Below, in pieces: positions 380-64,000 of a stretch of 64,000 nt of DNA. This DNA is from Candidatus Poribacteria bacterium (GTDB lineage Bacteria > Poribacteria > WGA-4E > WGA-3G). The position numbers were made by a program, and so were the translations under genes. Location of the stretch: positions 1-64,000 of the forward strand of contig PYJC01000106.1 of the NCBI GenBank assembly GCA_003635255.1, given 5' to 3'. The notes under the pieces were generated by a model. The model ran no database searches, was not told the origin of the DNA, and saw only the letters and a list, made by a program, of their open reading frames with translations. Each line of letters starts with the position of its first letter. Position 1 is the stretch's first letter.

Positions 380-1378
380 ATGAATATGAAATGCATGCGA
401 TCTTATATAGTATTAGGGATGGTGTTTTTGCTAAGTAGCGGTCTGCTCATCCACGGTGGTTGGGCAGATGATCAAGACATCCTCTCTTTTGTTTCTAAAA
501 AAGGTGAAGACAGTCCTATCATTCTCATGAATACCCAAGGCGCGATCCTCGAAAGGTTGGCAACAGATCCGGGAAAGCCATCCGAATTTACTTGGTCTCC
601 CAATGGACGTTCGATTGTCTATGACTCCTGGCACGGTGGAAATTTTGATATTTATGTGATGGATGTGGAAACAAATACACACCGTCAGTTGACTTTTGAT
701 GGTATCAGGGATCAGCAGCCTGTGTGGTCTCCGAATGGGAAATGGATTGCATTCATCTCGGACCGTGCGGGGGGCGAGACTATCTACAGAATGGATGTCA
801 ATGGAGAGAATGTGAAGCAACTCACAAACAAGAAAGATTGCCGCAAACCGGCTTGGTCGCCAGATAGCCAATGGATTGCCTTTAGTTCAGAACACTCTCT
901 TTACGTGATGGATGCTGGCGGTAGAAGGTTGAGGGAACTCACATGGACTAAGCGCTTCTCCGAATGTTCATGGTCACCCGATGGCAAACAGATCGCTTTT
1001 ACCTCAAGTGCCCCTAATGGGCGCACGGAAGTTTTCAGCATTGACGTAAATGGAAAGAACCGCCGCCAACTCACGCAGTCGGACCAACTGTCAATCATTT
1101 GGGACCCTGTGTGGTCACCGAGTGGAGAATGGATCGCCTATATCGTGGGTCAGATCCCATTCGGAGGTGCGGGGGCAAATCAAATCAAGACTAACGGAGT
1201 CGTCAGTATTGTTAATACAGTAAACGGTGCGGGTGGGAAACCGATTGAGGCAACAAAAGGATTGCCAAAGCAGTCTCTCCAGTGGGTACCCAAACAACTT
1301 CTCTCCGTATCGCCAAATGCAGAGAAGCAGACGACCTTGTGGGGTAGGCTCAAGCAAGCGGAAAATGCTGCCAAGTAG
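380..1378 (+). CDS. Exported PD40/TolB-like beta-propeller protein with WG-tail (paralogue 1)
   Basis: The 332-residue protein has a Sec signal peptide (basic start, hydrophobic stretch, cleavage probably after GGWA near residue 29). PD40-type repeats follow, marked by recurring WSPNGKWIAF and WSPDGKQIAF motifs, as in the TolB C-terminal propeller. It lacks the TolB N-terminal domain, so it is not TolB itself. The C-terminus ends in SPNAEKQTTLWGRLK plus seven residues, the tail shared with six other exported proteins here. The start is supported by TAGGAGGAATTT just upstream. It is the first of four related propeller genes on this strand. The ligand and final location are unknown; an extracytoplasmic binding or scaffolding role is inferred. 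Confidence 0.85.
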   Translation: MNMKCMRSYIVLGMVFLLSSGLLIHGGWADDQDILSFVSKKGEDSPIILMNTQGAILERLATDPGKPSEFTWSPNGRSIVYDSWHGGNFDIYVMDVETNTHRQLTFDGIRDQQPVWSPNGKWIAFISDRAGGETIYRMDVNGENVKQLTNKKDCRKPAWSPDSQWIAFSSEHSLYVMDAGGRRLRELTWTKRFSECSWSPDGKQIAFTSSAPNGRTEVFSIDVNGKNRRQLTQSDQLSIIWDPVWSPSGEWIAYIVGQIPFGGAGANQIKTNGVVSIVNTVNGAGGKPIEATKGLPKQSLQWVPKQLLSVSPNAEKQTTLWGRLKQAENAAK

Positions 1379-1609
1379 TTGCTGTATATCGAAGAAATTT
1401 GTTGTAACTTCCATGGATCTCTTGTATTTTATAGTAGATTCTGTAATTACTTATACACTCAGCATCGGTGCCGTTAGGAATGCAGATCGCAAGAAACCCC
1501 CCTTTATTCCCCCCTTATCAGGGGGCAGGGGGCAGATGAGTACACCGCAAAACCGCACCATAAGCGGTCAATTTTACAAAAAACAACCCTCTCGGACCCG
1601 AGACCGGTA

Positions 1610-1630
1610 GGTTCGGTTTCTAACCGAACC
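1610..1630. repeat. Perfect 9-bp hairpin
   Basis: GGTTCGGTT at 1610-1618 pairs with AACCGAACC at 1622-1630 around the loop TCT. No T-run follows on either strand, so it is not an obvious intrinsic terminator. It belongs to a set of short perfect intergenic hairpins with differing stems found elsewhere in the window (9036, 47174, 49051, 55510, 58315). Confidence 0.7.
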
Positions 1631-1672
1631 GGATTTTACACAGAGACCGTGAAACCTTCAAAACCCTCTTCA

Positions 1673-1748
1673 GTCGCGTAGCGACGAAATGTTTATAGCA
1701 GCGGTATCAAACAAGGATCCAAGCCCCGTAGGGGCGATATGTTTATAA
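1673..1748. repeat. Two hairpin repeats with different stems but conserved loop and tail
   Basis: Copy 1 (1673-1697) is GTCGC-GTA-GCGAC followed by GAAATGTTTATA. Copy 2 (1723-1747) is GCCCC-GTA-GGGGC followed by GATATGTTTATA. The stems differ at three positions per arm but each remains perfectly self-complementary. The GTA loop and the 12-base tail are nearly identical. The two copies start exactly 50 bp apart. Confidence 0.75.
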
Positions 1749-1903
1749 TAACTGTTCTAAAATACCGTGAAAACTCCCTAAATTGACACCTATGGCGCGG
1801 TGTTTTTGCTGGGGTGTTTCTTCTAGGAAACGGTACCTACCAGCGGAAACCGAAAGTATGTATTTATTTTTAAAATTTACGATAACCTGTTAAGGAGTAC
1901 ATA

Positions 1904-2731
1904 ATGAGATTTGCTATCTGGACGATTATTGGATATGCGCTCTTTTTAGGAACGCTATCTGTCTCCGCTGGGACGTTCTTTGAGACATTTGATAACTTTA
2001 ACTTAAAGGATTGGGAAGAAGTTACCGAGCGGAATGCTCCCGTTGGCGAATGGCGGGGTATCAATGGTGTGCTGCACGCAGAAAGCAAAGATGACGCGAT
2101 CCGAATGCTCGTTATAAAAGATGCAGCGTGGCACGATTACGAAGTAGCGTTAGATGTCATGCCACTTGACAGACAGGGACGTGGACACATTGTGCTGGCT
2201 GCACGCGTCAATCAGACGCATGCGATTGTTTTTGCGATTGGCAATATCTTCTGGAATGCGCCTTCACCCATAGTTTCAGGTTTCATTTTTAAATTGAACA
2301 CCGGAAGAAGAGTAGGACTCCCACTGATACTTGTGAAAATACAAGATTTGTTCAACGGACGCCCGCAGGGTGAAATTGTGGATGAGCTTTTGCGGGTTGG
2401 TGTGGTTACAGATATATGTACAACAGTTTGGCCGCATCCGTTTCTTGAAAGAGGAAAGTGGACCCAGTTAGAGCTGCGTGTCGTCGATAAAAGTTTTATG
2501 TTCTCGGTTAACGGAGAAGTGGTTTTATATCTCACCTGTCTCTTTGACACCTTCGCTTTCTTGGAGGAAGACCTTAATGTTGGGAGTGTCGGTTTCGGTG
2601 TTGCAGGCTATACTGCTCGGTTTGACAACCTCAAAATCACCGGCGAAGATGTGCCGAATCACGGCAATTTGTCGGTTCAACCCCAAGGCAAATTGGCAAT
2701 GACATGGGGTCAAATCAAGTCAGAGCAGTGA
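1904..2731 (+). CDS. Exported LamG/DUF1080-like protein with WG-tail
   Basis: The 275-residue protein has a Sec signal peptide (MRFAIWTIIGYALFLGTLSV, then SAG). The body looks like a concanavalin-type jelly roll of the 3-keto-disaccharide hydrolase (DUF1080) or LamG type: an FDNFNLKDWEEV start, a middle GKWTQLELRVVDKSF segment and a closing ARFDNLKITG strand. I see no catalytic signature, so carbohydrate binding is the safer guess. It ends with VQPQGKLAMTWGQIK and three further residues, the same tail as the neighbouring propeller proteins despite the unrelated fold. AAGGAG precedes the ATG at good spacing. It sits between propeller paralogues 1 and 2, 19 bp before the next gene. Confidence 0.8.
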   Translation: MRFAIWTIIGYALFLGTLSVSAGTFFETFDNFNLKDWEEVTERNAPVGEWRGINGVLHAESKDDAIRMLVIKDAAWHDYEVALDVMPLDRQGRGHIVLAARVNQTHAIVFAIGNIFWNAPSPIVSGFIFKLNTGRRVGLPLILVKIQDLFNGRPQGEIVDELLRVGVVTDICTTVWPHPFLERGKWTQLELRVVDKSFMFSVNGEVVLYLTCLFDTFAFLEEDLNVGSVGFGVAGYTARFDNLKITGEDVPNHGNLSVQPQGKLAMTWGQIKSEQ

Positions 2732-2750
2732 GAAAAATAAAAAAATAGTA

Positions 2751-3719
2751 ATGCGGTTTACACTATTTTTTTTCATTTTCAGTCTAATACTGTTGTGTGG
2801 CGATATTTGTCCTGTCTTTAGCAAAGCACCGGACACAGCGAAAATAGCGTTTAGTTCTTTCCGTGATGGCAATGTAGAGGTCTACCTCATGAATCCAGAT
2901 GGGAGTGAACAGGTGAATTTGACGCACCATCGAGCAGAGGATATTGATCCTGTTTGGTCCCCCACAGGTGAACACATCCTCTTCGTCTCAGATCGCATTC
3001 GGGTTAGCGACTTATATCTCATGGAACCCGATGGTTCAAATGTCAGGCGGGTTTTCAGGAAGGTAGCACAGAGGGAACACCCAACATGGTCTCCTGATGG
3101 CAGAAGGATTGCTTATGAACGCGTTGAATTTGATGAGAGTTGGATCTATATTGCTAACATAGATGGGACAAATGAAGAACGAATAATCCTTGGTCGTGAC
3201 CCTGCGTGGTCTCCTGATGGCACCGAAATAGCGTTTTTTACCGGACTCGCTGGGCACACCCGAATTTGGCTTTTCAATCTCCACACGCGGCAACAAAAAT
3301 CACTGCTTCCTGACAATGCAATCCAGTGGATGTGGTATCCCGCATGGTCGCCTTCCGGGGATAAACTTGCTTTTGCTTGGCTAAATCACTTCCCATTTAT
3401 CGGTTTTGTTGAGCGTCAGACGATCTATATTGTGAATCGTGATGGTACAGGCATTGAGCAGATTGTTGATGAAGCCGGTCCGAGAGCAAACGAGCCAGCG
3501 TGGTCCCCAAGTGGAGACATGCTGCTTTATTCCCAGCGTCTTGAAAACAATCGTTCCCAAATCTTCAAAATCGCTTTGGTTGGCGGGGACCCAGTGCAAC
3601 TGACACATATTGATTGGAATTATGGAGGCGATTGGTTCGATCCAGCGTATGCGTTACCCGTCTCACCACAGTCGCAGTTGCTAACAACGGTATGGGGAGA
3701 AGTGAAGAAGAAAAACTGA
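2751..3719 (+). CDS. Exported PD40/TolB-like beta-propeller protein with WG-tail (paralogue 2)
   Basis: This 322-residue protein has a signal peptide followed by KAPDTAKIAFSSFRDGN, the first PD40 blade. About six blades with WSPTGEHILF and WSPDGRRIAY motifs follow. The tail VSPQSQLLTTVWGEVK plus KKN closes the protein. It is closest to the next gene (shared KIxFxSxRxGxxEVYxM start and DWFDPAYALPVSPQ before the tail), which suggests a recent tandem duplication. The ribosome binding site is weak (A-rich spacer), fitting translation as a downstream member of an operon with the LamG-like gene 19 bp upstream. It is exported; function unknown. Confidence 0.85.
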   Translation: MRFTLFFFIFSLILLCGDICPVFSKAPDTAKIAFSSFRDGNVEVYLMNPDGSEQVNLTHHRAEDIDPVWSPTGEHILFVSDRIRVSDLYLMEPDGSNVRRVFRKVAQREHPTWSPDGRRIAYERVEFDESWIYIANIDGTNEERIILGRDPAWSPDGTEIAFFTGLAGHTRIWLFNLHTRQQKSLLPDNAIQWMWYPAWSPSGDKLAFAWLNHFPFIGFVERQTIYIVNRDGTGIEQIVDEAGPRANEPAWSPSGDMLLYSQRLENNRSQIFKIALVGGDPVQLTHIDWNYGGDWFDPAYALPVSPQSQLLTTVWGEVKKKN

Positions 3720-3741
3720 AGTCGTTTTTTCGGAGGCATCT

Positions 3742-4749
3742 ATGAGACGATATAAGTGTTTATCTGTCTTATGTGTATTAAGTGTGGTCCTATTATACAC
3801 AAACGTTTGCGATGTCCGCGCAAAAGTGCCTGAGACTGCCAAAATTGTGTTTACCTCCATACGAAATGGCGATCGCGAAGTCTATATTATGGATGCTAAC
3901 GGACAAAACAAAACCAACCTTACCGAACACCCAGGAGATGATATTCAACCTACTTGGTCACCGACAGGTGAACGCATCCTTTTTGTGTCAAACCGAGAAG
4001 GCAAGCACGACCTATATCTAATGAAACCAGATGGAAGTGATATCAAGCGTGTATTTGAAGAAAAGTCTCACCGTGTCGCCCCGATCTGGTCGCCAGATGG
4101 GAAACGGATTGCCTACGTCCACAACGGACTTCAACGGACGCTAAATATTGCTACAAAAGATGGGAAAGATCTTGAGGTGTTGACAACTGTAGACGATCTT
4201 CTCTATGTCAATCTTGCTTGGTCTCCGGACGGTACACAGATCGCCTTTGATAATATCGTCCGGACGAGTAGAACACATATTGTTAATTTACAGACGCGAA
4301 CGGTGGAGCCGCTACTTCCAGAACTTCACTTTGTAATACTCAACGTCGAGTGGTCTCCGGATGGGAAACAACTTGCGTTCGCTGGCGTGAGGTGCGTTGA
4401 GAACCAAGCGTGTCGTTTTAAAGGCTTTGATGATCTAACAGTGTATGTTGTTAATACGGATGGTACGGGTTTGAAACAGGTGGTCGCTAAAGAGGATTTC
4501 GGTGCTGACAATCCAGTGTGGTCTCCACAAGGGAATGCCTTGCTTTATCAACGAAAAGTTAAAGTTATTCTCGGAAATTTCAAGGAGACACAACTCTTCA
4601 GACACATATTCGGTCGTGATAAGCCGAAACAACTGACTGGCATCAGTCGAAATTTTTATGCGGATTGGTTTGATCCGGCGTATGCATTGCCCGTCTCACC
4701 ACAACCAAAGTTGCTCACCACACAGTGGGGAGAAATCAAAAAGGAATAG
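3742..4749 (+). CDS. Exported PD40/TolB-like beta-propeller protein with WG-tail (paralogue 3)
   Basis: The 335-residue protein has a signal peptide (ending near VCDVRAK), then PD40 blades such as WSPTGERILF, WSPDGKRIAY and WSPDGKQLAF. It has a small insertion with two cysteines (GVRCVENQACRFKG, about residues 213-226) absent from its neighbours, which could form a disulfide outside the cytoplasm. The tail is VSPQPKLLTTQWGEIK plus KE. CGGAGG lies just upstream of the ATG. The gene starts 22 bp after paralogue 2 and is probably co-transcribed with it. Confidence 0.85.
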   Translation: MRRYKCLSVLCVLSVVLLYTNVCDVRAKVPETAKIVFTSIRNGDREVYIMDANGQNKTNLTEHPGDDIQPTWSPTGERILFVSNREGKHDLYLMKPDGSDIKRVFEEKSHRVAPIWSPDGKRIAYVHNGLQRTLNIATKDGKDLEVLTTVDDLLYVNLAWSPDGTQIAFDNIVRTSRTHIVNLQTRTVEPLLPELHFVILNVEWSPDGKQLAFAGVRCVENQACRFKGFDDLTVYVVNTDGTGLKQVVAKEDFGADNPVWSPQGNALLYQRKVKVILGNFKETQLFRHIFGRDKPKQLTGISRNFYADWFDPAYALPVSPQPKLLTTQWGEIKKE

Positions 4750-4800
4750 ACTCTTACTGCTTACATTTTTAGGAAACCGAGCAAAGAGGAATTCGTCAAG

Positions 4801-5841
4801 ATGAAACACGCATTGCGTTATACGGTATTATGGGGTATGTTGATTCTATTGTTGGGGAATGTCCAAGCGGCTGGAACCGGAACACTCTCTTTTTCCTCCA
4901 GCCCCCGGAGCCCTGACCTCTATCTCGTAGATAGTACAGGGCAGAATCTTCGGAGACTTGTAACCGATAAGATAAATAAACATTCACCCACTTGGTCGCC
5001 GGATGGACGTTTTTTTGCATATCAATCTAAAGACGATGGGGATCCTGATATCTATGTGATGGATGTCAGAAACAAGACATCCCGCCAATTGACAAACCAT
5101 CCCGATAGGGACCTATCGCCTGTGTGGTCCCCGAATGGCAAATGGATTGCCTTTGTCTCTGACCGAACCGGTGATCTGGATATCTATAGAATAGATGTAG
5201 ACGGTTCAAATCTAATACGATTGACAAAATGGGGCGATAATAAATACCCTGCCTGGTCACCAGACAGTCAATGGATTGCTTTTATCTCTTCTCGAAATGA
5301 AAAGAAGTTTCTCTCTGTAATGAATGCTGATGGAAATAAGTTAAGACAACTCGGAGACGCATCTTTCAAGTGGGGTGGATGTACTTGGTCCCCTGATGGA
5401 ACACAGATTGCGTTTGCTGCTTGGGATCCTGAAGTAGAAGGGATAAACATCTTCATCGTTGACACGGATGGAAAAAACAAGCACCATCTAACCCGAGAAG
5501 AACCAAAGGATCTTCTCTTCGATCCAAAAGTACCACTCGCTTATCAACCTGCATGGTCACCTGATGGTCATTGCATTGCCTATATTTTGGAATATCTACG
5601 TGTACCTAAACCCGAAAATCCCCAAAAAGTCCAAAAAGATAGAAAGGTCATCTTCCCTCTGGTTCCTCGGGACGGTGTTATCTGCGTCACAAACGCCGTA
5701 GATGGAGGTACGGGAAAACCTCTTCTGATAACAAAAGAGTTGTCATCCGATTTATCTCCTGCGTGGGTGCCGGAACCCTTTTTCCCAGTTTCGCCGCGAT
5801 CGCAGTTATTATCAACACAGTGGGGACAACTGAAAAAATAG
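4801..5841 (+). CDS. Exported PD40/TolB-like beta-propeller protein with WG-tail (paralogue 4)
   Basis: The 346-residue protein has a signal peptide ending near VQAAG, then PD40 blades with WSPDGRFFAY, WSPNGKWIAF and WSPDSQWIAF. Its blades resemble paralogue 1 (380-1378) more than 2 and 3; both have a DIYVMDV segment, an INAVDGGTGKP-like segment and WVP before the tail. The C-terminus is VSPRSQLLSTQWGQLK plus K. AAGAGG is about 10 bases before the ATG. It is the last tail-bearing gene of this cluster; the sigma-factor gene follows after 178 bp. Confidence 0.85.
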   Translation: MKHALRYTVLWGMLILLLGNVQAAGTGTLSFSSSPRSPDLYLVDSTGQNLRRLVTDKINKHSPTWSPDGRFFAYQSKDDGDPDIYVMDVRNKTSRQLTNHPDRDLSPVWSPNGKWIAFVSDRTGDLDIYRIDVDGSNLIRLTKWGDNKYPAWSPDSQWIAFISSRNEKKFLSVMNADGNKLRQLGDASFKWGGCTWSPDGTQIAFAAWDPEVEGINIFIVDTDGKNKHHLTREEPKDLLFDPKVPLAYQPAWSPDGHCIAYILEYLRVPKPENPQKVQKDRKVIFPLVPRDGVICVTNAVDGGTGKPLLITKELSSDLSPAWVPEPFFPVSPRSQLLSTQWGQLKK

Positions 5842-5920
5842 TTGTTTTTTTACATTTAAAAAACACTTCTAAGCGATCCGATCCTGCATGGAATTTGCCA
5901 AAATTCTACGGGTATCGGAT

Positions 5921-5966
5921 TTTTTTTCAAGATATGCACCTTTTTGCCCTCAAAATTGTATCATTA
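5921..5966 (+). promoter_or_regulatory. Promoter-like element upstream of the sigma gene (copy 1)
   Basis: A 46-bp stretch (T-run, then ATGCACCTTTTTGCCCTC and AAAATTGTATCATTA) is repeated nearly exactly at 9113-9157, where it precedes the first lipoprotein gene. TGCACC (5935-5940) and TATCAT (5959-5964) are 18 bp apart in both copies, a spacing compatible with a promoter. Conserved repetition in front of a sigma gene and a neighbouring gene suggests autoregulation by that sigma factor; this is inference. Confidence 0.5.
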
Positions 5967-6019
5967 ATAATTTGAATGTAAACACAATCACGTTTATGCG
6001 TGAGTCATGGGGAATTCTT

Positions 6020-9000
6020 ATGGTGGAAAACGATGTTCAACTGATTCACAGAATTTTATCGGGTGATGAAGAGGCATTCAGTGCTTTGGTGCGAAAGTAC
6101 CAAAAGAGCGTTCACGCGCTTGCGTGGCGAAAAATTGGCGATTTTCACATCGCTGAAGAGATTGCCCAAGATGCTTTTCTCCAAGCATACAAGAACCTCG
6201 CGACGCTGAGGAATCCCAGTCAGTTTGCTGGATGGCTTTATGTGATTGCCAATAACCTTTGCAAGCGGTGGCATCAAAGCAACAAACCTGTGATGCAATC
6301 CCTGGAGGCCACATCTGTAGCAGAGGTAGGGAGATCTTCTTATAAACGTTACGTATCGGAGCAACGGGAGGCGGAAGCCGTGGAACATCGCTACGAAATC
6401 GTCAAAGAACTGCTGGAAAAACTGCCGGAGAGTGAACGCACTGTGGTGACACTCCACTATCTCGGTGAAATGACAGTGAAAGAGATTGGCAACTTCTTGG
6501 GGGTCTCCGTGAATACAATTAAGAGTCGGATTCGCCGGGCACGGGAGCGTTTACAAGCCGAAGAGCATCTAATTAGCGAAACGCTCGGAAGCGTCCAGAT
6601 GCCTGCCGATTTCATTGAGGGTATTATGCGGCAAGTTGCCGACATCAAACCAGCACCCCCTCAGGTAGGGAAACCGCTGCTACCGTGGGCGGCTTTTGGC
6701 ACAGCTGCCGTCTTCATATTGCTAATGCTCGGTGTCGGGTCTCAATACCTCGCTCGTTTCCAGAGACCTTACAACTTGAACGCCCAATCGGAAACCACTG
6801 TTGAAATCATTGATGCGCCCATTGTCCTTGATACACAGGCGGAACCGGATGTGCGAAACCGAGCCGGACTTTTCGATACCCCGGGTACGGACAGCGGCGC
6901 CGGTGTACAAATTTCAAAGCCGGTTGTGCCGGTTCCGACTGTGCAGATAGAGAAGGAAGTGCCCCCGACGCTGAAGCAGCAGTGGAAACACGCAAATGCA
7001 CCGGGTTTCGGGCCAGTGTTCGGCTTACTCGCCAGCTCAAAAAACGACATCTACGCCGCTTCACACCTCGGTATCTATAGGTTGACACCCGACACCTCTA
7101 CATGGGCGTTCATTAGTCCGGCAGCCGCTGTTAACCTTCCAACCGATTTTAGGGACTACAACACGATACCCATGGCTGAGAGAGGCGACACGCTCTACCT
7201 TGTCTCTGGTGATGAAGTGTTTAGTTCAAGCAATAGCGGAGAGACATGGACATCGCTTGGGGATCGCCCGAAAGGAGCCGCTATGGGATTAGCAATAACC
7301 GATGAAGCCTTCTACCTTGCACTTCGAAATGACGGAATCTTCCGATCCGAAGATAGAGGGAAGCAGTGGACCCTATTGAATGATGAAGTTACAAAGGTAA
7401 AAATCTTTGCCTTGGCTACGCTTGAAAACACAGTGTTTGTCGGGACAAATCAGGGACTCTACCGTATCAAGCCAAGACACGGTTTAGAAAAATTGCCACT
7501 GAATACCACGAATGCTATCCATTCTTTGGCAGTTTCCGAAAATAACCTTTATGTCGGGACAGGACCCGATCTTTTCAATTCTTCTCTAACGAAGGCATCC
7601 GTACAAGAAGCGATAGATAAGAAGCAAAATGTGTGGGAAATTTTCCATTCAGCCGACTTGGGGAATTCGTGGGCTGACATAACACCTAAAATCGAATCAC
7701 CTTTTATAAGGCTATCACCCGGTGTTAAAGTCCTCACTGCTGGAAACACGCTTTTAGCAATCGGATACGTCGGCTTCCATCTCCGATCAATGGATGGTGG
7801 AAAAACATGGTCAGGTGCCGATCAGAAGCCGAGCCCGGTTGCAATTATGAATTCAATACTTTTGAGTATGTTCCCTGCTGTCGGCGTGGACGAAGACACT
7901 GTATTCACGGCGGGAATTTTCGGACTTAATCGTTCAACCGATGCTGGCGAATCGTGGCAGCCTTTTATGACAGGAATGATAGCGACCAGAATATCTAACC
8001 TCATCGCGTTCAAAAACGCTCTCTACGGGAATACCGGCACGAAGATCGCCAAATCCACAGATGGCGGAATGTCGTGGCAAACCTTGCATTTCGATCCTAA
8101 TAAGTTGACATCAATGTGGAAAAAACAATTGATGCACGCTCGCGGGTTCCTGCTCCTTCCAAGACTAACGGTTTCTGATGATGTACTTTACGGCATCACA
8201 TCAATCCCAGGTGTCGAAGATACCGCCTGCATTTTCCATCTCTCTGCGGGTGGCACTGATCTGGTGCTTGTTCAAGGTACCCCGACTTTTAGCGAAAGTC
8301 TCTCTATAGAAATGCCAGGATCTGAACGGCAGGAGGGTGCCGAAGAAAATATAGCGGATGACACCGCGAACGATCCTGAAAAAACGGGTGCGTTGCCAGA
8401 ATCAACTCGCCAGAATACATCGTTTCCTCGTGCGTTTGCGGTCAGCGGCGATGCATTCTATGTGGAATATCAGGGGCGGCTCCTGCGGTGGAGACGCGGC
8501 GAATCCGAATGGTTCGTCGCTGGACTGGTAGACATCGACGCGTCTGCCAAAAATGATGGCACCGATCCCTTCATTCTCGCTGTTTCAGGTGAAACCGTCT
8601 ACGTCGGCAAACGCGACGGTCATCTGTTCCAATCATTTGACGAGGGAAACATGTGGGAAGACGTGACATTAAGGCTGCCTTTTGAATTTGAGCATTTCAA
8701 CGAGATAGTTTTTGACGGTTCAACGGTCTATGTCGCTACGGACGCAGGTGTTTTAACATCAGCGGACGGCAATAACTGGCGCGCGATAACGGATAAAACC
8801 GGGACCCGGACTATTATAGATCGCATCGCTGTCGTTGACACGACGATTTATGGGGCTGGTGATGCCGGGGTCTATCAATTGGATACTCGAGGCAAATGGG
8901 AACAAATCTTACCAGAGGTGCCACACAGTGTCATCTCCGTTGTCATCAATGGTGATAAACTTTATATCGCTACCAAACAGAGCGGGATGTTTCAGGCATC

Positions 9001-9022
9001 GCTTGAAAAAGAAAACGATTGA
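6020..9022 (+). CDS. Membrane-anchored ECF sigma factor fused to a BNR-type beta-propeller
   Basis: This 1000-residue protein joins an ECF sigma factor to an extracytoplasmic propeller. Sigma region 2 spans about residues 10-90 (with DAFLQAYKNL and GWLYVIANNL). Region 4 spans about 128-180 (LPESERTVVTLHYLGEM, then a helix-turn-helix with VSVNTIKSRIRRAR). One transmembrane helix lies at about 221-243 (WAAFGTAAVFILLMLGVG). From about residue 340 onward there are at least eight Asp-box/BNR-like repeats (SSNSGETWTSL, SEDRGKQWTLL, STDAGESWQPF, STDGGMSWQTL), as in sialidase or Ycf48 propellers. I chose ATG 6020 (GGGGAA upstream) over frame extension to 5888, which adds non-sigma sequence. No separate anti-sigma gene is nearby. 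Signal-dependent release is inferred. Confidence 0.85.
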   Translation: MVENDVQLIHRILSGDEEAFSALVRKYQKSVHALAWRKIGDFHIAEEIAQDAFLQAYKNLATLRNPSQFAGWLYVIANNLCKRWHQSNKPVMQSLEATSVAEVGRSSYKRYVSEQREAEAVEHRYEIVKELLEKLPESERTVVTLHYLGEMTVKEIGNFLGVSVNTIKSRIRRARERLQAEEHLISETLGSVQMPADFIEGIMRQVADIKPAPPQVGKPLLPWAAFGTAAVFILLMLGVGSQYLARFQRPYNLNAQSETTVEIIDAPIVLDTQAEPDVRNRAGLFDTPGTDSGAGVQISKPVVPVPTVQIEKEVPPTLKQQWKHANAPGFGPVFGLLASSKNDIYAASHLGIYRLTPDTSTWAFISPAAAVNLPTDFRDYNTIPMAERGDTLYLVSGDEVFSSSNSGETWTSLGDRPKGAAMGLAITDEAFYLALRNDGIFRSEDRGKQWTLLNDEVTKVKIFALATLENTVFVGTNQGLYRIKPRHGLEKLPLNTTNAIHSLAVSENNLYVGTGPDLFNSSLTKASVQEAIDKKQNVWEIFHSADLGNSWADITPKIESPFIRLSPGVKVLTAGNTLLAIGYVGFHLRSMDGGKTWSGADQKPSPVAIMNSILLSMFPAVGVDEDTVFTAGIFGLNRSTDAGESWQPFMTGMIATRISNLIAFKNALYGNTGTKIAKSTDGGMSWQTLHFDPNKLTSMWKKQLMHARGFLLLPRLTVSDDVLYGITSIPGVEDTACIFHLSAGGTDLVLVQGTPTFSESLSIEMPGSERQEGAEENIADDTANDPEKTGALPESTRQNTSFPRAFAVSGDAFYVEYQGRLLRWRRGESEWFVAGLVDIDASAKNDGTDPFILAVSGETVYVGKRDGHLFQSFDEGNMWEDVTLRLPFEFEHFNEIVFDGSTVYVATDAGVLTSADGNNWRAITDKTGTRTIIDRIAVVDTTIYGAGDAGVYQLDTRGKWEQILPEVPHSVISVVINGDKLYIATKQSGMFQASLEKEND

Positions 9023-11059: not shown

Positions 11060-13036
11060 GTGAAACGTATTCTCGTTTTCGCAAGCATAGCGATTGCGAT
11101 GCTATACCAACTTGGCTGTTCTCTTGATGAAGAGCAAACACAATCTGAAAATCCCATAACCGACGATTCAACAGCCGTTCTTAACGCCCCACGCTTTGTC
11201 GGAAACGTTGTACTGAAAAATATGTATGAGGATGAAGCTGGGAAACTAACAAGCAAAACACCACTGGAAATCATTACCGTGCTTGAAGGCACTGGCAAAG
11301 TCAGTCTTCAGGCTCAATTTCGGGCAGTTAAAAACGGGCCTTTTGGATCACCCGTCTACGAATGTGAACTGATTGATGAATCAGCAGAGATTGCCCGCGG
11401 CATGTCAGGCAGTCCTGTAGGTCCCCCGGGCCGCGTCATGGGTGCGCTCGCCTTCGCATACATATATAGCAAACCACCGCATCGGTTCTTCGTCACACCC
11501 ATTGATTATATGGAGACAGCCGTAAACCATCCAACATTTGGTGAGTTTTTGAATGGAGAGGCGGCACCCGCTGCACCTGCAATGGCGATGAATGCTCTGT
11601 ACGCGCCTGTTAAAACACCTGTGATAATGACAGGGATTCAGCCCCACAGAATTCAAGAACTTTCTTCGCATCTCTCTGGCTCAAAATTCGATTTTGTTGA
11701 ATTGCTTGGTGATATCGGCGGCGCGCCTGGAGCACCGCCTGCAGGGGCTACAACAAAACTCTTTGCGGGGGATATGATTGGTGCTGCCGTAGCCACAGGA
11801 GATGTTACGAGCCTCATCGGTTATGGAACAGTGACACAGGTTTATGACGATAAATTTGTAGCCTTCGGTCACCCATTCTTTGCAGATGGGAAGTCTGCAT
11901 TACCGGTATATAGAGCTGTAACGCATGGAATCGTGTCCAACTTGGTGGCATCAAGTAAATCTGTCTCAGCGTATGGAAATCCGATCGGGACAATAACTAA
12001 AGACCTACATCCTGGGATTGTAGGGGAACTCGGTCCGGGGCCCCCAATGATTCCTGTGAAGGTCTCCTATCACCCGGTTAACAACACGCCTATAGAAAAA
12101 CATCACGTTGTGGCTTATGGGCAAGAATGGGCGATTTCGTATGTCACGGCGGTCACAATGGACGCAATTCGGATGGAGCGGAACGCTGCAACCGTTGAAG
12201 GAACTGTGACGCTTCACTTTCAAGAAACCGAAACTGTGTATACAGAAAAATTTCGGACCGCCTCTTCAAACCCATTTTTAGATGTGTTCAGAAAGACGGG
12301 TTCAATTATTGATGCGTTCACCAATACACTTACAAATAGCGCGGGCAAAGCAACATTGAAAGCGGCATCGATTGCTATCGTGGACAAACCGCAAATTGCC
12401 ACAGCCGAAATTGACGAAATTATTGTGCCTGCTGAAGTGATGCCTGGAGAAAGCCTCACGGTTTCGGTTGTGCTACTTCCGCACTGGAGTGCTGCCGGTG
12501 CTAAGCGGATAATTCAAAGAGATGTTATACTTGACATCCCTGACGGCTTTCCAACAGGTGAAGCAAACCTCACGGTTTCCGCCGCCGATGAATCGGCTGA
12601 CGATACTGAATTTACACAACTCTTCGGCGATATTTTTGATGAACTCTTAGGCGAGGAAGAAGATGATGCTGAAAAACCGTTGCCAAGGAACCTCGACGAA
12701 CTCATCCGTCAGAAGGAAGAAGATCAGATGGATGCGGGGTTAATTACAATAACCCTTACACCATCGGCTTTTGGCGGTGGATTCCCATTACCTGAAGATT
12801 TACCGCTGCCAGAGGGCTTCCCACTCCCACAGAATGGCGAAGAAGGTGAAGGAGATGACGGAGAAATTCCAGAAGGTTTTCCATTGTCGGAAGACTTCCC
12901 ACTCCCAGACGCTTCTGCCGAACAACCCATAGAAACTGAACTCATTATTGAAGGCTTTATCGTAACAGGGGCTAAAGAGGCACAGATTACGATTAAAGTA
13001 GGAAACATGGGAGCGGGTGTGCTGCCAGCGCAATAA
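11060..13036 (+). CDS. Lipoprotein with SpoIVB-like (S55) serine protease domain
   Basis: The 658-residue protein starts at GTG 11060 (GGAGG upstream), giving a lipoprotein signal with lipobox YQLGC (Cys 20). Residues 114-119 read GMSGSP, the catalytic-serine motif of SpoIVB-type peptidases. It is followed by a VMGALAF strand and, further on, FVAFGHPFFADG and GTITKDLHPGIVGELG, also typical of the family. In Bacillus, SpoIVB cleaves a regulator to trigger sigma-K release. The C-terminal third has an acidic segment and a degenerate Pro-Leu-rich repeat (PLPEDLPLPEGFPLP, about residues 574-620). It follows the lipoprotein pair and the membrane sigma gene on one strand. Activity is inferred from motifs. 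Confidence 0.8.
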   Translation: MKRILVFASIAIAMLYQLGCSLDEEQTQSENPITDDSTAVLNAPRFVGNVVLKNMYEDEAGKLTSKTPLEIITVLEGTGKVSLQAQFRAVKNGPFGSPVYECELIDESAEIARGMSGSPVGPPGRVMGALAFAYIYSKPPHRFFVTPIDYMETAVNHPTFGEFLNGEAAPAAPAMAMNALYAPVKTPVIMTGIQPHRIQELSSHLSGSKFDFVELLGDIGGAPGAPPAGATTKLFAGDMIGAAVATGDVTSLIGYGTVTQVYDDKFVAFGHPFFADGKSALPVYRAVTHGIVSNLVASSKSVSAYGNPIGTITKDLHPGIVGELGPGPPMIPVKVSYHPVNNTPIEKHHVVAYGQEWAISYVTAVTMDAIRMERNAATVEGTVTLHFQETETVYTEKFRTASSNPFLDVFRKTGSIIDAFTNTLTNSAGKATLKAASIAIVDKPQIATAEIDEIIVPAEVMPGESLTVSVVLLPHWSAAGAKRIIQRDVILDIPDGFPTGEANLTVSAADESADDTEFTQLFGDIFDELLGEEEDDAEKPLPRNLDELIRQKEEDQMDAGLITITLTPSAFGGGFPLPEDLPLPEGFPLPQNGEEGEGDDGEIPEGFPLSEDFPLPDASAEQPIETELIIEGFIVTGAKEAQITIKVGNMGAGVLPAQ

Positions 13037-13136
13037 TAATCTCAGAGCGGCTCAACGAAAGACTGAAAACAAGAAATCCGAGATTCAGATAGGTGGTTTT
13101 ACACACCAAGCTGTTCTCGGGAAAGGATGCATTCAG

Positions 13137-14765
13137 ATGAGAAAAATAAGCCTTTCAATTTTAACCCTACTCTCCATTTTTACGCTTACTTTACCTGTTG
13201 CCTCTGCCGAAGAGTATTTCCATACGCGGACTCTCAAGGGACATAAATTTTCTGTCTCTGCAGTGGCATTCAAAGACGATAGCACACTTGTCAGTGTGGG
13301 GACCGATAGCGTCCTTCACTTTTGGAATCTTGATACGGGTGCACCAGACTGGCATACCGAAGTGGGTCTCTTCTTAATCTCTGATATTGCGATATCATCG
13401 CATGACTCGCGTTTTGTCGTTTATGCTGGCGGACTGTTTTTTCGCCCTTATATTGGGATGTCTTACACAGATGACGGAGACATAAGAGGTTACCTCGTAG
13501 GACATACGAACACTGTCAATGCGCTGTCCTTTAAACCAGGGAGTTCCACCCTTGCCAGTGGGAGCGACGACGACACAATTCGTATCTGGGATTTAACATG
13601 GGACGCATGGAAAAGTCGACCCGTACGGACGCTGCGTGGACATAAGAATAACGTTGAAGCGGTTGTGTGGAGCCCTGATGGAACTAGGCTCGCCAGTGGA
13701 AGTCGAGACCGGACCGTCCGCTTGTGGAACCCAGACAACGGTGCCAACACCGCTATACTTCGCGGACATACGAATACTGTGAACTCGGTTGCGTGGAGTC
13801 CTGACGGAACTAGGCTCGCCAGTGCAAGCAACGATGACACAATCCGCTTATGGGACCCAACGGACACGGATTCCCCGCTGTACGTTTTGGAAGGTCATAC
13901 CGGTAACGTCAATACGTTGGCATTCCATCCAACCGAGGCAATCCTTGCCAGTGGCAGTAGCGATGACACAATCCGCTTATGGGACGCTACCACTGGTCTC
14001 CACAAAGCCACTCTGAAAGGGCATACAGGTGGTGTTAATACAATAGCGTGGAACTCTGATGGATCACTTCTTGTGAGTGGCAGTAATGACGACACAATCA
14101 GATTGTGGGAACCACTCGCAGCAGTAGATGTAACAGGCGACGGTAGTGTCACATATCTTGACATTATTGAGGTGGGGGAGAACTATGGAAAAACTGTTGT
14201 AGATGGAGCAAACCCACGCGCGGACGTCAACAAAGATGGTGTCGTTAATATTGAGGACCTCATTGTTGTTGCTAAGGCAGTGGACTCCCAAGCACCAGTA
14301 GATTCCCAAGCGGCACCTATTCTTACACAGAATCCACACGATTTCTCCGTCACTGCAGAAGATGTCCAGCAGTGGATCCAAAATGCACAGGATGTTAGTG
14401 CGGATCCACAGACGATTGTTATCTTAGAACGACTTTTGGCAGTTGGGACACGGATGGCACAACCAACACCGGAAAAAACAGTTCTTTTGGCGAACTATCC
14501 CAACCCCTTCAATCCAGAGACCTGGATACCCTATCAGTTGGCACAACCAGCGGAGGTCGTTGTTTTCATTCATACTGCGAACGGTGCTTTGGTCCGGACA
14601 CTGCCCTTAGGCGAAATGCCTGCAGGGGTCTATCAGAGTAGAGCCCGTGCTGCTTATTGGGATGGTAAGAATGCCCACGGAGAGCCAGTCGCAAGTGGCG
14701 TCTATTTTTATACGCTCAAAGCAGGGCAGTTCACCGCCACGCGTAAGATGTTAATTCGGAAGTAA
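13137..14765 (+). CDS. Secreted WD40 protein with dockerin-like repeats and FlgD-like tail
   Basis: The 542-residue protein has a signal peptide (cleavage probably after VASA, about residue 24). WD40 repeats follow (about residues 30-325; LWNPDNG, LWDPTDT, LWDATTG, LWEPLA). Next come two calcium-loop motifs, DVTGDGSVTYLDI and DVNKDGVVNIEDL (about 328-382), like a type I dockerin. The C-terminal 95 residues begin NYPNPFNPETWIPYQL and end in ASGVYFYTLKAG and RKMLIRK, the FlgD/Por-type tail associated with type IX-like sorting in other phyla. I chose ATG 13137 because the longer frame overlaps the previous gene. This tail differs from the WG-tail. Secretion is likely; partners are unknown. Confidence 0.82.
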   Translation: MRKISLSILTLLSIFTLTLPVASAEEYFHTRTLKGHKFSVSAVAFKDDSTLVSVGTDSVLHFWNLDTGAPDWHTEVGLFLISDIAISSHDSRFVVYAGGLFFRPYIGMSYTDDGDIRGYLVGHTNTVNALSFKPGSSTLASGSDDDTIRIWDLTWDAWKSRPVRTLRGHKNNVEAVVWSPDGTRLASGSRDRTVRLWNPDNGANTAILRGHTNTVNSVAWSPDGTRLASASNDDTIRLWDPTDTDSPLYVLEGHTGNVNTLAFHPTEAILASGSSDDTIRLWDATTGLHKATLKGHTGGVNTIAWNSDGSLLVSGSNDDTIRLWEPLAAVDVTGDGSVTYLDIIEVGENYGKTVVDGANPRADVNKDGVVNIEDLIVVAKAVDSQAPVDSQAAPILTQNPHDFSVTAEDVQQWIQNAQDVSADPQTIVILERLLAVGTRMAQPTPEKTVLLANYPNPFNPETWIPYQLAQPAEVVVFIHTANGALVRTLPLGEMPAGVYQSRARAAYWDGKNAHGEPVASGVYFYTLKAGQFTATRKMLIRK

Positions 14766-18135: not shown

Positions 18136-18630
18136 ATGCGTCAAGCCCACACTTTCATCAAGACATTGCCCGCAGATCGGTATTCCATATTAGGGATAGC
18201 CCTACTGTCATTGACGATGGCGTTGAGCGGTTGTGGTGAGGATCCTTCTGGGGGCAGCGGCTTTACAGATTTAGGACGCGGTGAACCTACTATAATTGAT
18301 TCCGCCTTAGCGATTAGTGTCTTTGATGACAGACCTGACGGTATCACGGATACTTTCTCCGCAGCGCACAACGACCAAGTGTATTTATGGATCTTATGGG
18401 CGAATATCACAGAAGAACATACAGTTGAAGTCTCGTGGTACTCACCGGAGGAGGGGCCTGACGATCCGGCGTTTTGGACCGAGAAACAGACTTTTACATC
18501 AACAACCGGCGATAAAATTACATGGTTTTATGTCGATCTACCAGAACCAGACATTATAGGTGAGTGGTTCGTTGAAGTCCACCTTGATGGCGATCTCTTT
18601 GAACGGAGCTATGTCTTCTGGGTAAGATAG
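18136..18630 (+). CDS. Small lipoprotein of unknown function
   Basis: The 164-residue protein has a long N-region, then a hydrophobic stretch ending in the lipobox LSGC (Cys about 34). The mature part has an Ig-like or jelly-roll look, with alternating strands such as HTVEVSWYSPEEGP and KITWFYVDLPEP, and ends in SYVFWVR. I recognise no family. GGAGGAAAACGC precedes the ATG. It has its own consensus promoter at 17991 and is followed 33 bp later by the Gfo/Idh/MocA gene, possibly in one transcript. Confidence 0.75.
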   Translation: MRQAHTFIKTLPADRYSILGIALLSLTMALSGCGEDPSGGSGFTDLGRGEPTIIDSALAISVFDDRPDGITDTFSAAHNDQVYLWILWANITEEHTVEVSWYSPEEGPDDPAFWTEKQTFTSTTGDKITWFYVDLPEPDIIGEWFVEVHLDGDLFERSYVFWVR

Positions 18631-18663
18631 TAAACGCGAACAACCACCAAATGGAGAAAAATC

Positions 18664-19749
18664 ATGGATAGACTCAGAATCGCACATATCGGCACAGGTA
18701 GACGCGGTGCCGGCACTTATCTTCCCCTTATCTCAAAATTGACGGATGATCTGGAGTTAGTCGCTGTTTGCGATCCACGCGAAGAAAGCGTTACAGAACA
18801 AGGTGAAAAATACGACGTTCCCGCTTATACAGACACCGCGCAGATGTTGGACACAATAAAACCTGATATCTGCGCAATAGTGATTACACCGAGCAACAAT
18901 CACATCCCCGGTTTGCTCTGCTCCGAACGGGGTATCAGTTACTGTACAGAGACACCCATTGATACCGACCTCGGATGGGCGGACAAGATGATTGCCTCCG
19001 CACAAGCGAACGGCATAAAACTGGAGGTCAACGAAAACTATTATCGCGTGCCTACAGAGCGGATCAAACGGGAAATGATTTTGGCAGGGGTCTTCGGTAA
19101 AGTCAATGTCGCTTACAATGACTTCCGGGGGCACGGCTATCACGGGATAGGACTTATCCGTAGTTACGTCGGTTTCGACAATGAACCTGTACAAGTTTAC
19201 GGTTTCCGAAAGGGATATGACGTTCAGGAGCATGTCTGGCGGAAAGGGCAACCCACGCGCGATACTGAGGATTGGCAACATGCCGTGATTGAGTTTGCCG
19301 ATGGTGCTGTCGGCATCTTCAATTTCAGCGGTCTCTCCTACGGTTCACCTCTACGCGGTTTTAACGGTTCTAAATTCTACGCCGAGCGCGGAATGTGTTT
19401 CCGAAACGACGCTGTCATCTTGAATGACACTGCCGATGAACAGCGCGCGATTACCATCTCACGTAGAACCGATACCGTTGATGCCTACGAAACCTTAGCC
19501 GCCCTCGTTGCTGATACTGATCCCGAAGTGGTATGGGAAAATCCGTTACGAAATTATCCGCTCAGCGATGGCGAAATCACTGTTGCTTCGGAACTGATGA
19601 GTCTTGTTAATGCCGTTCGCAATGATACGGAACCCGAATACGGTGCCTACAACGGTCGTAAAGATCGGGAGATTGATGTCGCGATGGCACGTTCATGGTC
19701 AAACAACGGCGCACCTGTTACCTTTCCCTTTGAATATGAAAAACGTTAA
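18664..19749 (+). CDS. Gfo/Idh/MocA-family oxidoreductase with an altered EKP motif
   Basis: The 361-residue protein has an N-terminal NAD(P)-binding fold (IAHIGTGRRGAGTYL, then VAVCDPRE) and a typical alpha/beta C-terminal domain (PTERIKREMILAGVFGKV). Family members oxidise or dehydrate sugars and similar polyols. In most, the cofactor-proximal motif is E-K-P with an important lysine; here it is E-T-P at residues 96-98. The enzyme may therefore have changed chemistry or be a non-catalytic member. The paralogue at 43862 keeps EKP. AAATGGAGAAAAATC precedes the ATG. Neighbours do not reveal a substrate. Confidence 0.8.
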   Translation: MDRLRIAHIGTGRRGAGTYLPLISKLTDDLELVAVCDPREESVTEQGEKYDVPAYTDTAQMLDTIKPDICAIVITPSNNHIPGLLCSERGISYCTETPIDTDLGWADKMIASAQANGIKLEVNENYYRVPTERIKREMILAGVFGKVNVAYNDFRGHGYHGIGLIRSYVGFDNEPVQVYGFRKGYDVQEHVWRKGQPTRDTEDWQHAVIEFADGAVGIFNFSGLSYGSPLRGFNGSKFYAERGMCFRNDAVILNDTADEQRAITISRRTDTVDAYETLAALVADTDPEVVWENPLRNYPLSDGEITVASELMSLVNAVRNDTEPEYGAYNGRKDREIDVAMARSWSNNGAPVTFPFEYEKR

Positions 19750-46350: not shown

Positions 46351-47109
46351 ATGAAAATTCTATTTTGTATAACCCTCGTTATCGGTTTGGTAATACCCGG
46401 CACACTCTGGGCGAAGAATATGGCACTCGAATTAGATGGTAAAACGGCTATCGAAGTCCCGAACAGTGACAGCCTGAATCCCAAAAACGCGATAACGATA
46501 GAAGCGTGGATGAACATGAGCAAACCTGTCGGGGAATGCCTCGCAAAGGACTGGGGCGGCAAAAGAGATTACATCTTTCCAGAGATTGTCCAAAATGGAA
46601 ACGGATTACGGTTTGTCCTCTGGCCCGGCACAAAAATCCTTGATGTCCCCGGATTGAAGCCGAACGAATGGCAGCATGTCGTGGGGGTCTGGGATGGTAA
46701 AGAGATGCGGACATATATTGATGGCGAGGAGAAGGGAGCACTTGCCTTTGAGGCAAAGGAATTAGCGGCAACCGAGGCTTCGCTGTATATCGGTGTCGGT
46801 GATAGCCAAAATTGGTTCTGTACAGGAGCCATTGATGAAATCCGTATCTGGGAAGTCGCTCGGACCGAAGATGAGATTAATGAATTCATGATGAAGGTCC
46901 TCGACGGTGATGAAAAGGGCTTGAACGCACACTACACTTTCGATGAAGGTGATGCCAACGATAATACCAAAAACGGAAACGATGGCAAGGGCGGGTTCGG
47001 GAAGCCGAATTATATTGATGTCACCAATGACTTAGATCTCGAGCCACTTTCTGTGGATCCGGGAGATAAACTGACAACAACGTGGGCATGGGTGAAACAG
47101 ACCCGATGA
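46351..47109 (+). CDS. Exported LamG-domain protein with WG-tail
   Basis: The 252-residue protein has a signal peptide (LFCITLVIGLVIPGTLWA), then a LamG/concanavalin-like domain: ALELDGKTAIEVPNSDSLNP, ITIEAWMNM, WQHVVGVWDGKEMRTYIDG, GAIDEIRIW. These domains commonly bind glycans. The C-terminus is VDPGDKLTTTWAWVK plus QTR, a variant of the tail with Ala for Gly after the Trp. GAGGAGAAACGAATC precedes the ATG; 14 bp separate it from the zinc-ribbon gene. Confidence 0.85.
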   Translation: MKILFCITLVIGLVIPGTLWAKNMALELDGKTAIEVPNSDSLNPKNAITIEAWMNMSKPVGECLAKDWGGKRDYIFPEIVQNGNGLRFVLWPGTKILDVPGLKPNEWQHVVGVWDGKEMRTYIDGEEKGALAFEAKELAATEASLYIGVGDSQNWFCTGAIDEIRIWEVARTEDEINEFMMKVLDGDEKGLNAHYTFDEGDANDNTKNGNDGKGGFGKPNYIDVTNDLDLEPLSVDPGDKLTTTWAWVKQTR

Positions 47110-58188: not shown

Positions 58189-58240
58189 TGTTTTTTCTCC
58201 TGATCTTGGATGCAGCTTACAAGCGAAAACTTGTTGAGGT

Positions 58241-58377
58241 TGGCGGGGTTTGATGAAGATTAATTTATTAATTCGGTAATTCCGTATTCTGCACGAGGCG
58301 GGTATCCCCCCTGCAGGCGAGGATTGTATCCTCGCCTAATTACCGAAATATTTTCTTAAACTTCAACAACCCCGCCA
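58241..58377. mobile_element. 137-bp nested inverted-repeat element, MITE-like
   Basis: Perfect outer arms TGGCGGGGTT (58241-58250) and AACCCCGCCA (58368-58377); middle arms TTCGGTAATT (58272-58281) and AATTACCGAA (58338-58347); an inner hairpin AGGCGAGGAT (58315-58324) with ATCCTCGCCT (58328-58337) around TGT. It fills most of the gap between the two metalloprotease paralogues. No target-site duplication is clear. It could equally be a large RNA hairpin acting on mRNA processing. Confidence 0.5.
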
Positions 58378-61049: not shown

Positions 61050-61224
61050 CGTTTTTTCTCCCTTTTGGTGTAGCTTACAGTTTCCAAAATTTGCTGTTAT
61101 TATAAAGCAGGCAATCCATCTGGTGTCTCTCGCCACGAATTGCTGTGTTTTGCGCTATATGTATTGTTCTCATCTGAACAAGTATATCATTTTTCTCTGA
61201 TCTCTACTACATAAATTTCTCGCT

Positions 61225-62907: not shown

Positions 62908-63765
62908 TCATTTTGTCTTTAATGCTCCCCAGAGGGTTGACAATTTTCCTTTAGGCGCAATGTCGTAAGGTTCGGTGGATTCAAAGTTCTGGAGCACTTC
63001 ATCCGCTGTGAGCGGACGATTGTAAAAACGGACTTCATCAATCATACCCATGAAGTGGCCTGTTGATTTTCCAGGAAACTTTCTTGCACCAAGGGTTACA
63101 GGTGCTGTAAATGGGGCAAATGCTCTGTCTCCACCTCCAAATCCATGGTTGCTTGTAGAACCGGATACACCGTCTATATAGACAATTCTTTTACCGTTTC
63201 CGCCGCCTTCATGTATCGTATAATCGTTTGTATAAACAATGTGGTGCCATTCACCATCAAAAACACCCACACTTCCTCCGCTACCAGCACCGCCGCATCC
63301 ATTTGGTCCTCCAATCCCAATGTAATGACGAAGCGTTCTCTCCCTAATCTCAAATCTAAATTTATCATTACTTCCATTGAGTTCTATTCCCCAATTAGGA
63401 CATTCCGCACCACGCGTATTAATGAGCGTCATCCAATCCTTCTTATTAGTGGTTTTAATCCAAGCTTCAAACGAAGCCGTGCCAAACTTTTTGCCGAAAT
63501 CTCCAAGCGTGGTTAGGTTTACAAAATCGCCAACACCGTCAAATTCGAGTGCCTCTCCTACCTGACCGGGAACAACTTTAGGATTTCCAATGATTTTACC
63601 ATTGTTGTCACCCCAAACATCTTTTACTGTTTTATTGATAATGTATGCTTTATCAAAGGTCCAATAGCTGACGAGCCCATCTGTTACAACAGACGCAGGT
63701 GCCGTATTGAGTGAGAAAATACCGATAATTATCGCAAATGTCATAGAGTAGATTCTGCTTTTCAT
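62908..63765 (-). CDS. Exported LamG-domain protein with WG-tail
   Basis: The 285-residue protein has a signal peptide (MTFAIIIGIFSLNTAPASVV) and a LamG domain: VSYWTFDKAYI, ALEFDGVGDFVNL, ASFEAWIKTT, GEWHHIVYTNDYTIHEGG, GMIDEVRFYNRPLTADEVLQ. A glycine-rich loop (GPNGCGGAGSGGSVG) sits mid-domain. The C-terminus is IAPKGKLSTLWGALK plus TK, the tail shared with six other proteins. I start at ATG 63765 (AAAGGAGTAATCACA upstream); the longer frame lacks a signal peptide start. Confidence 0.86.
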   Translation of the reverse strand: MKSRIYSMTFAIIIGIFSLNTAPASVVTDGLVSYWTFDKAYIINKTVKDVWGDNNGKIIGNPKVVPGQVGEALEFDGVGDFVNLTTLGDFGKKFGTASFEAWIKTTNKKDWMTLINTRGAECPNWGIELNGSNDKFRFEIRERTLRHYIGIGGPNGCGGAGSGGSVGVFDGEWHHIVYTNDYTIHEGGGNGKRIVYIDGVSGSTSNHGFGGGDRAFAPFTAPVTLGARKFPGKSTGHFMGMIDEVRFYNRPLTADEVLQNFESTEPYDIAPKGKLSTLWGALKTK

Positions 63766-64000
63766 TGTGATTACTCCTTTTGAAAGCGTGTTAAAACAAT
63801 CCAACCTGCCACCTATACATAACTTTTGTGGTTGAAGCAAACCGATCTACGAACTTACGTTATTTAGATTTAGCAAATTCCGTGCCAATCTGAACAATAC
63901 TATATTGACGGAGTTTTCTACAAAACGCAGAGGAGGCACTGCACGAAATAGGGCATTCTCTATACTTGACCGCACAAAATGGGGTGTACTTAATGACCAA
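63766..64000. other. Right-end non-coding stretch
   Basis: No gene is recognised to the window edge. It holds the leader of the LamG gene. TTGACCGCACAAAATGGGGT (from about 63967) could be part of a rightward promoter, but nothing to the right is visible. Confidence 0.4.

Follow-up and report, generated by a model that had tools for sequence, protein, structure and literature searches.

Seven exported proteins encoded in a 64,000-nucleotide stretch of DNA from Candidatus Poribacteria bacterium (contig PYJC01000106.1, positions 1 to 64,000; hereafter the window) end in a shared C-terminal tail that carries a Thr-Thr-Trp-Gly motif, the TTWG tail, and our analysis confirms that this observation is real. 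The tail is C-terminal in position, linked to signal peptides, independent of fold, conserved, predicted to be disordered, and spread over the entire phylum. With regard to its role our confidence is evenly balanced: the tail may serve Poribacteria as a short linear address tag at the C-terminus, recognized once the protein has left the cytoplasm and sorting its carrier to the surface or retaining it there.

A C-terminal tail on exported proteins

A profile built from the seven tails had at least 150 matches in the window's own genome, and nearly all of the open frames that held them were 200-370 residues long. The iterated profile was applied to a 1.09 Mb sample of this genome (61 loci including the window, and 9,039 stop-to-stop open reading frames), in which it identified 109 carriers, with the motif at the C-terminus in 108. 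The consensus of the tail is V-x-P-x-[GD]-K-L-[TA]-T-T-W-[GA]-x-[LIV]-K, followed by a few residues (mostly 1-7). Among the 108 aligned tails, the positions preceding the Trp were occupied by V at -10 in 81, P at -8 in 63, K at -5 in 86, L at -4 in 83, T at -2 in 92 and T at -1 in 69, while those following it held G (84) or A (23) at +1, one of L, I or V at +3 (105) and K at +4 (107). None of these tails has a hydrophobic segment, and the G/A-x-[LIV]-K that follows the Trp gives way to a few mostly polar residues. An unanchored DNA pattern (K-L-T-T-T-W-G-x-[IL]-K), which carries no stop-codon requirement, was run on 84,980 species genomes and returned at least 119 distinct matches; among the 119 listed, 117 were C-terminal (1-8 residues to the stop), 2 lay in short frames and none was internal. 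The terminal position of matches in both searches excludes chance. The less stringent expression W[GA]x[LIVM]K had one mid-protein match in the window (STWGKIK in the frame 55570-58335, minus strand), which lacks the upstream part of the motif.

Tail genes occur in tandem clusters, and tandem arrays of paralogues account for many of the carriers. Thirty-nine loci (625 kb) that had been picked independently of tails contained 33 tail genes, a density that extrapolates to about 280 per genome of 5.4 Mb.

The link to export is strong. Signal peptides were called in 99 of the 104 carriers whose 5' end is complete (about 95%) and in 253 of 762 other genes, by a crude test that over-calls, so that the contrast alone is usable. 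The majority of the carriers scored as negative are truncated at the end of a locus or have a visible signal peptide. Furthermore, none of the 99 signal-peptide carriers has a lipobox, compared with 36 of the 253 other signal-peptide genes, and 102 of 108 carriers of the DNA pattern from other genomes also have a signal peptide. The tail is not on every exported protein, since large WD40 propellers with signal peptides lack it. Carriers do not belong to one fold. The 107 proteins that were compared with family models include 41 LamG, 26 PD40, 9 3keto-disac_hyd, 3 F5/8 type C and 3 SGL proteins, the others having no assignment among these families. Conversely, 41 of the 44 LamG-family matches in the same genome bear the tail and a 42nd bears a diverged version of it. 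The original prediction, which had tied the tail to exported proteins of different folds, is borne out on both counts, and the motif is found neither within proteins nor in cytoplasmic ones at a similar rate. Limited to the C-termini of exported proteins whatever their fold, the tail is in this respect like C-terminal sorting and anchoring tags in general.

The tail is conserved as protein. In an alignment of 57 LamG homologues (26% mean column identity), its V, W and K are invariant columns; mean pairwise identity in LamG proteins was 59% for tail columns, 28% for the body and 45% for the best 15-column window of the body. The corresponding values for PD40 proteins were 52% for the tail and 31% for the body, one window of which, at 54%, matched the tail. 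Conservation acts at the protein level because all synonymous codons are used, and this mixture of codons also rules out a DNA repeat spread by recombination. The bodies of a LamG and a PD40 protein were modeled with confidence by AlphaFold, whereas the predicted local distance difference test score (pLDDT) fell below 50 over the tail in both (Table 1). As neither model is confident in the region of the tail, we rejected the idea that it is the terminal strand of a known domain.

All seven tails of the window are present and C-terminal at the predicted genes, with 5-11 residues after the Trp. The sequences originally listed were right and their gene order was not: VQPQGKLAMTWGQIK belongs to the gene at 1904 and SPNAEKQTTLWGRLK to the gene at 380. 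Pfam upheld the two proposed fold types, with PD40 at 380, 2751, 3742 and 4801 on the one hand and, on the other, 3keto-disac_hyd (formerly DUF1080) at 1904 and Laminin_G_3 at 46351 and 62908. By the same crude test a signal peptide is present in all seven, and none has a lipobox. The start of the gene at 62908-63840 is probably the internal ATG at 63765.

Table 1. The seven TTWG tails of the window, each followed by a stop codon, and the proteins that they terminate
Tail	Position	Strand	Protein	Residues with AlphaFold pLDDT <50
VSPNAEKQTTLWGRLKQAENAAK	1307..1378	+	PD40 protein, 380-1378	
VQPQGKLAMTWGQIKSEQ	2675..2731	+	3-keto-disaccharide-hydrolase-like protein, 1904-2731	
VSPQSQLLTTVWGEVKKKN	3660..3719	+	PD40 protein, 2751-3719	
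VSPQPKLLTTQWGEIKKE	4693..4749	+	PD40 protein, 3742-4749	
VSPRSQLLSTQWGQLKK	5788..5841	+	PD40 protein, 4801-5841	330-338, 340-346
VDPGDKLTTTWAWVKQTR	47053..47109	+	Laminin_G_3 protein, 46351-47109	187-252
IAPKGKLSTLWGALKTK	62908..62961	-	Laminin_G_3 protein, 62908-63840	

Other genes of the window deserve mention. Two neighboring exported proteins, paralogues of each other with HExxH-type metalloprotease motifs (55570-58188 and 58425-61136, minus strand), have no TTWG tail. A single open reading frame at 5888-9022 (plus strand) fuses regions 2 and 4 of an extracytoplasmic function (ECF) sigma-70 factor to a membrane segment and to a propeller of BNR/sortilin-like type; similar fusions of sigma factor and WD40 propeller recur in the same genome (L038:5102-8122 and L067:2597-5446).

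Distribution in and beyond Poribacteria

The search of related genomes established that the tail is lineage-wide: it was present in all 85 Poribacteria genomes examined, which belong to 22 genera, with 26 to at least 104 copies in each. Among the matches listed for the DNA pattern, 79 of 80 loci were from genomes named Poribacteria and one was from a metagenome-assembled genome (MAG) named Pseudomonadota (G085), which, judging from its isolate name, appears to come from a sponge. A relative of this MAG with a complete genome in one contig of 2.84 Mb (G086) encodes at least six tail proteins. Around the Pseudomonadota MAG, 140 of 144 genomes lacked the tail, as did 193 of 195 around a further genome, G213. 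The latter was rejected as an independent carrier and is likely a case of contamination, its carrier contigs being poribacterial in appearance (one, C2, has both a PD40 tail protein and a T9SS-domain protein, see below) and its relatives negative. The contigs concerned in this 1.7 Mb genome (L387, L388 and L389) encode poribacterial-type tail and T9SS-domain proteins that the relatives do not have, and probably represent contamination of the MAG.

Tails in G085 and G086 are found on two protein families, exported proteins that we read from their sequences as serine-protease-like (they have no Pfam match) and metalloprotease-ankyrin proteins. In the second family (L335, L268, L310 and L385:18317-19495) the C-terminus is either a TTWG tail or a poribacterial-type dockerin followed by a sorting domain of the type IX secretion system (T9SS). 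Of two paralogues in G085, one (L268) ends in the tail and the other (L335) in dockerin and T9SS domain, and the homologue in G086 (L310) ends in the tail. The tail and the T9SS domain consequently share one slot on the same body.

These distributions bear on two explanations that invoke no address. The tail could be an assembly peptide that docks on or inserts into another exported protein, in the style of donor-strand exchange, and so builds a surface layer or network with no dedicated sorting machine to read it. A tail that is disordered alone and yet strongly conserved is what this explanation predicts, and tandem clusters of genes and the prevalence of LamG, propeller and carbohydrate-binding-like folds among carriers also agree with it. 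It does not sit well with the same tag on serine-protease-like and metalloprotease-ankyrin proteins of another phylum, and the C-terminal slot common to the tail and T9SS sorting domains is a better fit to sorting; we regard assembly as rather unlikely. Alternatively, the tail could be a handle for a periplasmic protease or chaperone in quality control, or a relic of duplication, with no role in sorting. The many paralogues in tandem arrays are compatible with such an origin, but the tail is better conserved than most protein bodies over unrelated folds and 22 genera, its codons are randomized, and it sits on unrelated proteases in another lineage, all of which makes this explanation extremely improbable.

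Relation to type IX and type II secretion

The sole strong internal motif of the first survey lies directly upstream of a T9SS type-A domain (VEPIGKQTTTWGRIK-AAEVFQNYPNPFNPETWIPY, L076). The motif followed by PNPFNP was recovered in 51 of 83 genomes, mostly once in each and with 7-8 residues between the K and PNPFNP, while a reversed-pattern control returned 0. Most of these composites are one orthologous FG-GAP/ASPIC-like protein, and the rest are WD40-like and unrelated. Since T9SS domains occur in all 83 genomes, with 9 to more than 60 in each, the arrangement is real but minor. The motif was present in 30 of 70 T9SS-domain proteins, a count that includes loci chosen for having it. We rejected a reading of the motif as nothing more than the beginning of the T9SS domain, since the motif is absent from the majority of T9SS-domain proteins and most genomes have more tails than T9SS domains. 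The window itself encodes a WD40 propeller that ends in a T9SS type-A domain (13017-14765, plus strand; NYPNPFNPETWIPYQL...TATRKMLIRK) and no TTWG motif.

Components of the T9SS are encoded as well. An SprA-like protein of about 2,200 residues was found in 82 of 83 genomes and Peptidase_C25 likewise in 82 of 83. In the window's genome the SprA-like protein scored 158.5 bits, below the cut-off of 200; a PorV-family protein, adjoining a C25 protein, scored above its cut-off. Examples of this poribacterial SprA-like translocon with Peptidase_C25 and PorV-family proteins are at L286:10740-17375 (minus strand) and L288:10709-18018 (plus strand). Poribacteria were said in 2014 to have Por-type sorting domains without Por machinery (PMC3909097), a statement with which the homologues reported here are at odds. 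They also qualify the claim that the tail is distinct from known sorting signals. The tail has no Pfam or NCBIfam match, but the contrast with Por/T9SS signals is less clean than supposed, given that the motif precedes T9SS type-A domains in about one protein per genome and that this machinery is encoded.

One may therefore ask whether the tail is a minimal T9SS signal, read directly by the poribacterial SprA/PorV/C25 system as a reduced C-terminal domain. The near-universal machinery, the motif directly before T9SS domains and the alternation of tail and domain on homologous bodies all speak for this view. On the other hand, neither TIGR04183 nor TIGR04131 matched any of the seven window proteins at E ≤ 10, a full T9SS domain placed after the motif would be redundant, and G086, with its tail proteins, yielded neither SprA nor the T9SS domain TIGR04183 (the SprA search of G085, G086 and G213 was run without a positive control). 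We consider a minimal T9SS signal decidedly improbable.

The type II secretion system (T2SS) offers another candidate. GspD scored above cut-off in all 16 tail-bearing genomes tried, G085 and G086 included. The T2SS operon of the window's genome (L077) reads gspE, tail gene, gspF, pseudopilins H/I/J, gspK, a PilM-like gene, a gspM-like gene (so named by position), gspD and two further tail genes; the first of the three tail genes (18242-19060, minus strand) belongs to the 3-keto-disaccharide-hydrolase family and is on the same strand as its gspE and gspF neighbors. T2SS cargo typically consists of folded beta-rich exoproteins. These features would be expected if the tail itself were the signal for T2SS export, recognized by components of the system in the periplasm and without a role after export. 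A universal linear T2SS signal is not known, the composites with T9SS domains would be left unexplained, and the adjacency of tail genes to gspD is not conserved, so that we find this account very doubtful.

The data fit an address tag that is read after export. Apart from its terminal position, tie to export, independence of fold, conservation, predicted disorder and spread over the phylum, clues in its favor are the junction with T9SS domains, the exchange of tail and T9SS domain on one body, the tail gene between gspE and gspF, and G086, in which GspD was found but neither SprA nor a T9SS domain. The tail protein would be exported by Sec through its ordinary signal peptide, its folded domain bearing a flexible linker that ends in the motif and a few free residues. 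A receptor in the envelope or at the cell surface would then recognize the exposed tag and sort or hold the protein at the cell surface. For tail-only proteins, the T2SS would be the likeliest route over the outer membrane. The minority that combine the motif with a T9SS domain would be exported by the T9SS, and once a PorU-type sortase had cut the domain off, the new C-terminus would carry the same tag; if the domain is removed as in Bacteroidota, as we infer, that C-terminus would be like the one of a tail-only protein.

Several observations weigh against the address tag. Genome searches that covered tail, T9SS and T2SS markers identified no receptor or processing enzyme. GspD is widespread, so that its co-occurrence with the tail is weak evidence. 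Tail genes lie beside gspD in only two genomes, that of the window and one other of its genus, and among the loci read they adjoin the SprA-like gene solely in this genus; we accordingly rejected the first as a conserved arrangement and the second as proof of T9SS dependence. Among about 280 tail genes per genome, a few can be expected to lie next to such genes fortuitously. In the Pseudomonadota lineage, the tail proteins L268 and L310 are lipoprotein-like and the tag is thus not the sole possible anchor there, and the SprA search of G085, G086 and G213 was, as noted above, run without a positive control.

Comparison with known sorting signals

The original prediction had called the tail an undescribed sorting, anchoring or interaction signal of this lineage. 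That it is unmatched by family models, tied to exported proteins, fold-independent and lineage-wide stands; sorting, anchoring or binding itself is something we infer. No description of the tail was found in Pfam, NCBIfam or papers (searched by phylum and secretion, and with the literal string TTTWG), and no C-terminal sorting (CTERM) model of NCBIfam was among the matches of the seven proteins at E ≤ 10. If the address-tag reading is true, the roughly 280 tagged proteins per genome constitute a testable list of the displayed proteome and a bait for the receptor. Poribacteria are dominant sponge symbionts (PMC3909097), and the tag would bear directly on the question of how they display proteins to host and sea. 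A more speculative extension, which we hold to be unlikely, is that the tail represents a new class of C-terminal address tag, short and not spanning the membrane, that serves a whole phylum on about 5% of its genes and is portable between bacteria: a sponge-associated Pseudomonadota lineage would have fitted its own exported proteases with poribacterial-type tags (TTWG tail, or dockerin and T9SS domain), possibly to let them act on or be held by poribacterial surfaces.

The closest parallels are families of C-terminal tags. PEP-CTERM and GlyGly-CTERM regions are built round a transmembrane helix and basic residues. The TTWG tail resembles these regions, which are paired with exosortase (PMC1569441) and rhombosortase (PMC3237569), respectively, in being a short C-terminal region on unrelated exported proteins with many copies per genome. 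MYXO-CTERM, for which surface sorting via the T2SS is predicted, is universal in one phylum and occurs on dozens of exported proteins; it combines an invariant Cys motif with a transmembrane helix and an Arg-rich end, and its cleavage is the work of a CPBP protease (PMC11980579). The TTWG tail is similarly phylum-universal on dozens of exported proteins, but has no conserved Cys and, unlike all three of these tags, no transmembrane helix with a basic cluster at the C-terminus.

The tail is also like the LPXTG signal in its C-terminal position and in the few basic residues at its end, and it contains an L-x-T-T-W-G stretch. It differs in having neither LPXTG nor a hydrophobic segment, and its carriers have an outer-membrane type of envelope, as indicated by the secretin and the SprA-like protein. 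With the T9SS type-A domain (TIGR04183 / PF18962) the tail shares the C-terminal slot and the genomes, and the motif can directly precede the domain; that region, however, folds as a domain, is about 80 residues long and bears PNPFNP and GxYxYxL...K motifs, whereas the tail has about 20 residues and none of these. If the address-tag reading holds, the TTWG tail would be a further sorting signal, built differently from PEP-CTERM, MYXO-CTERM, LPXTG and the T9SS domain.

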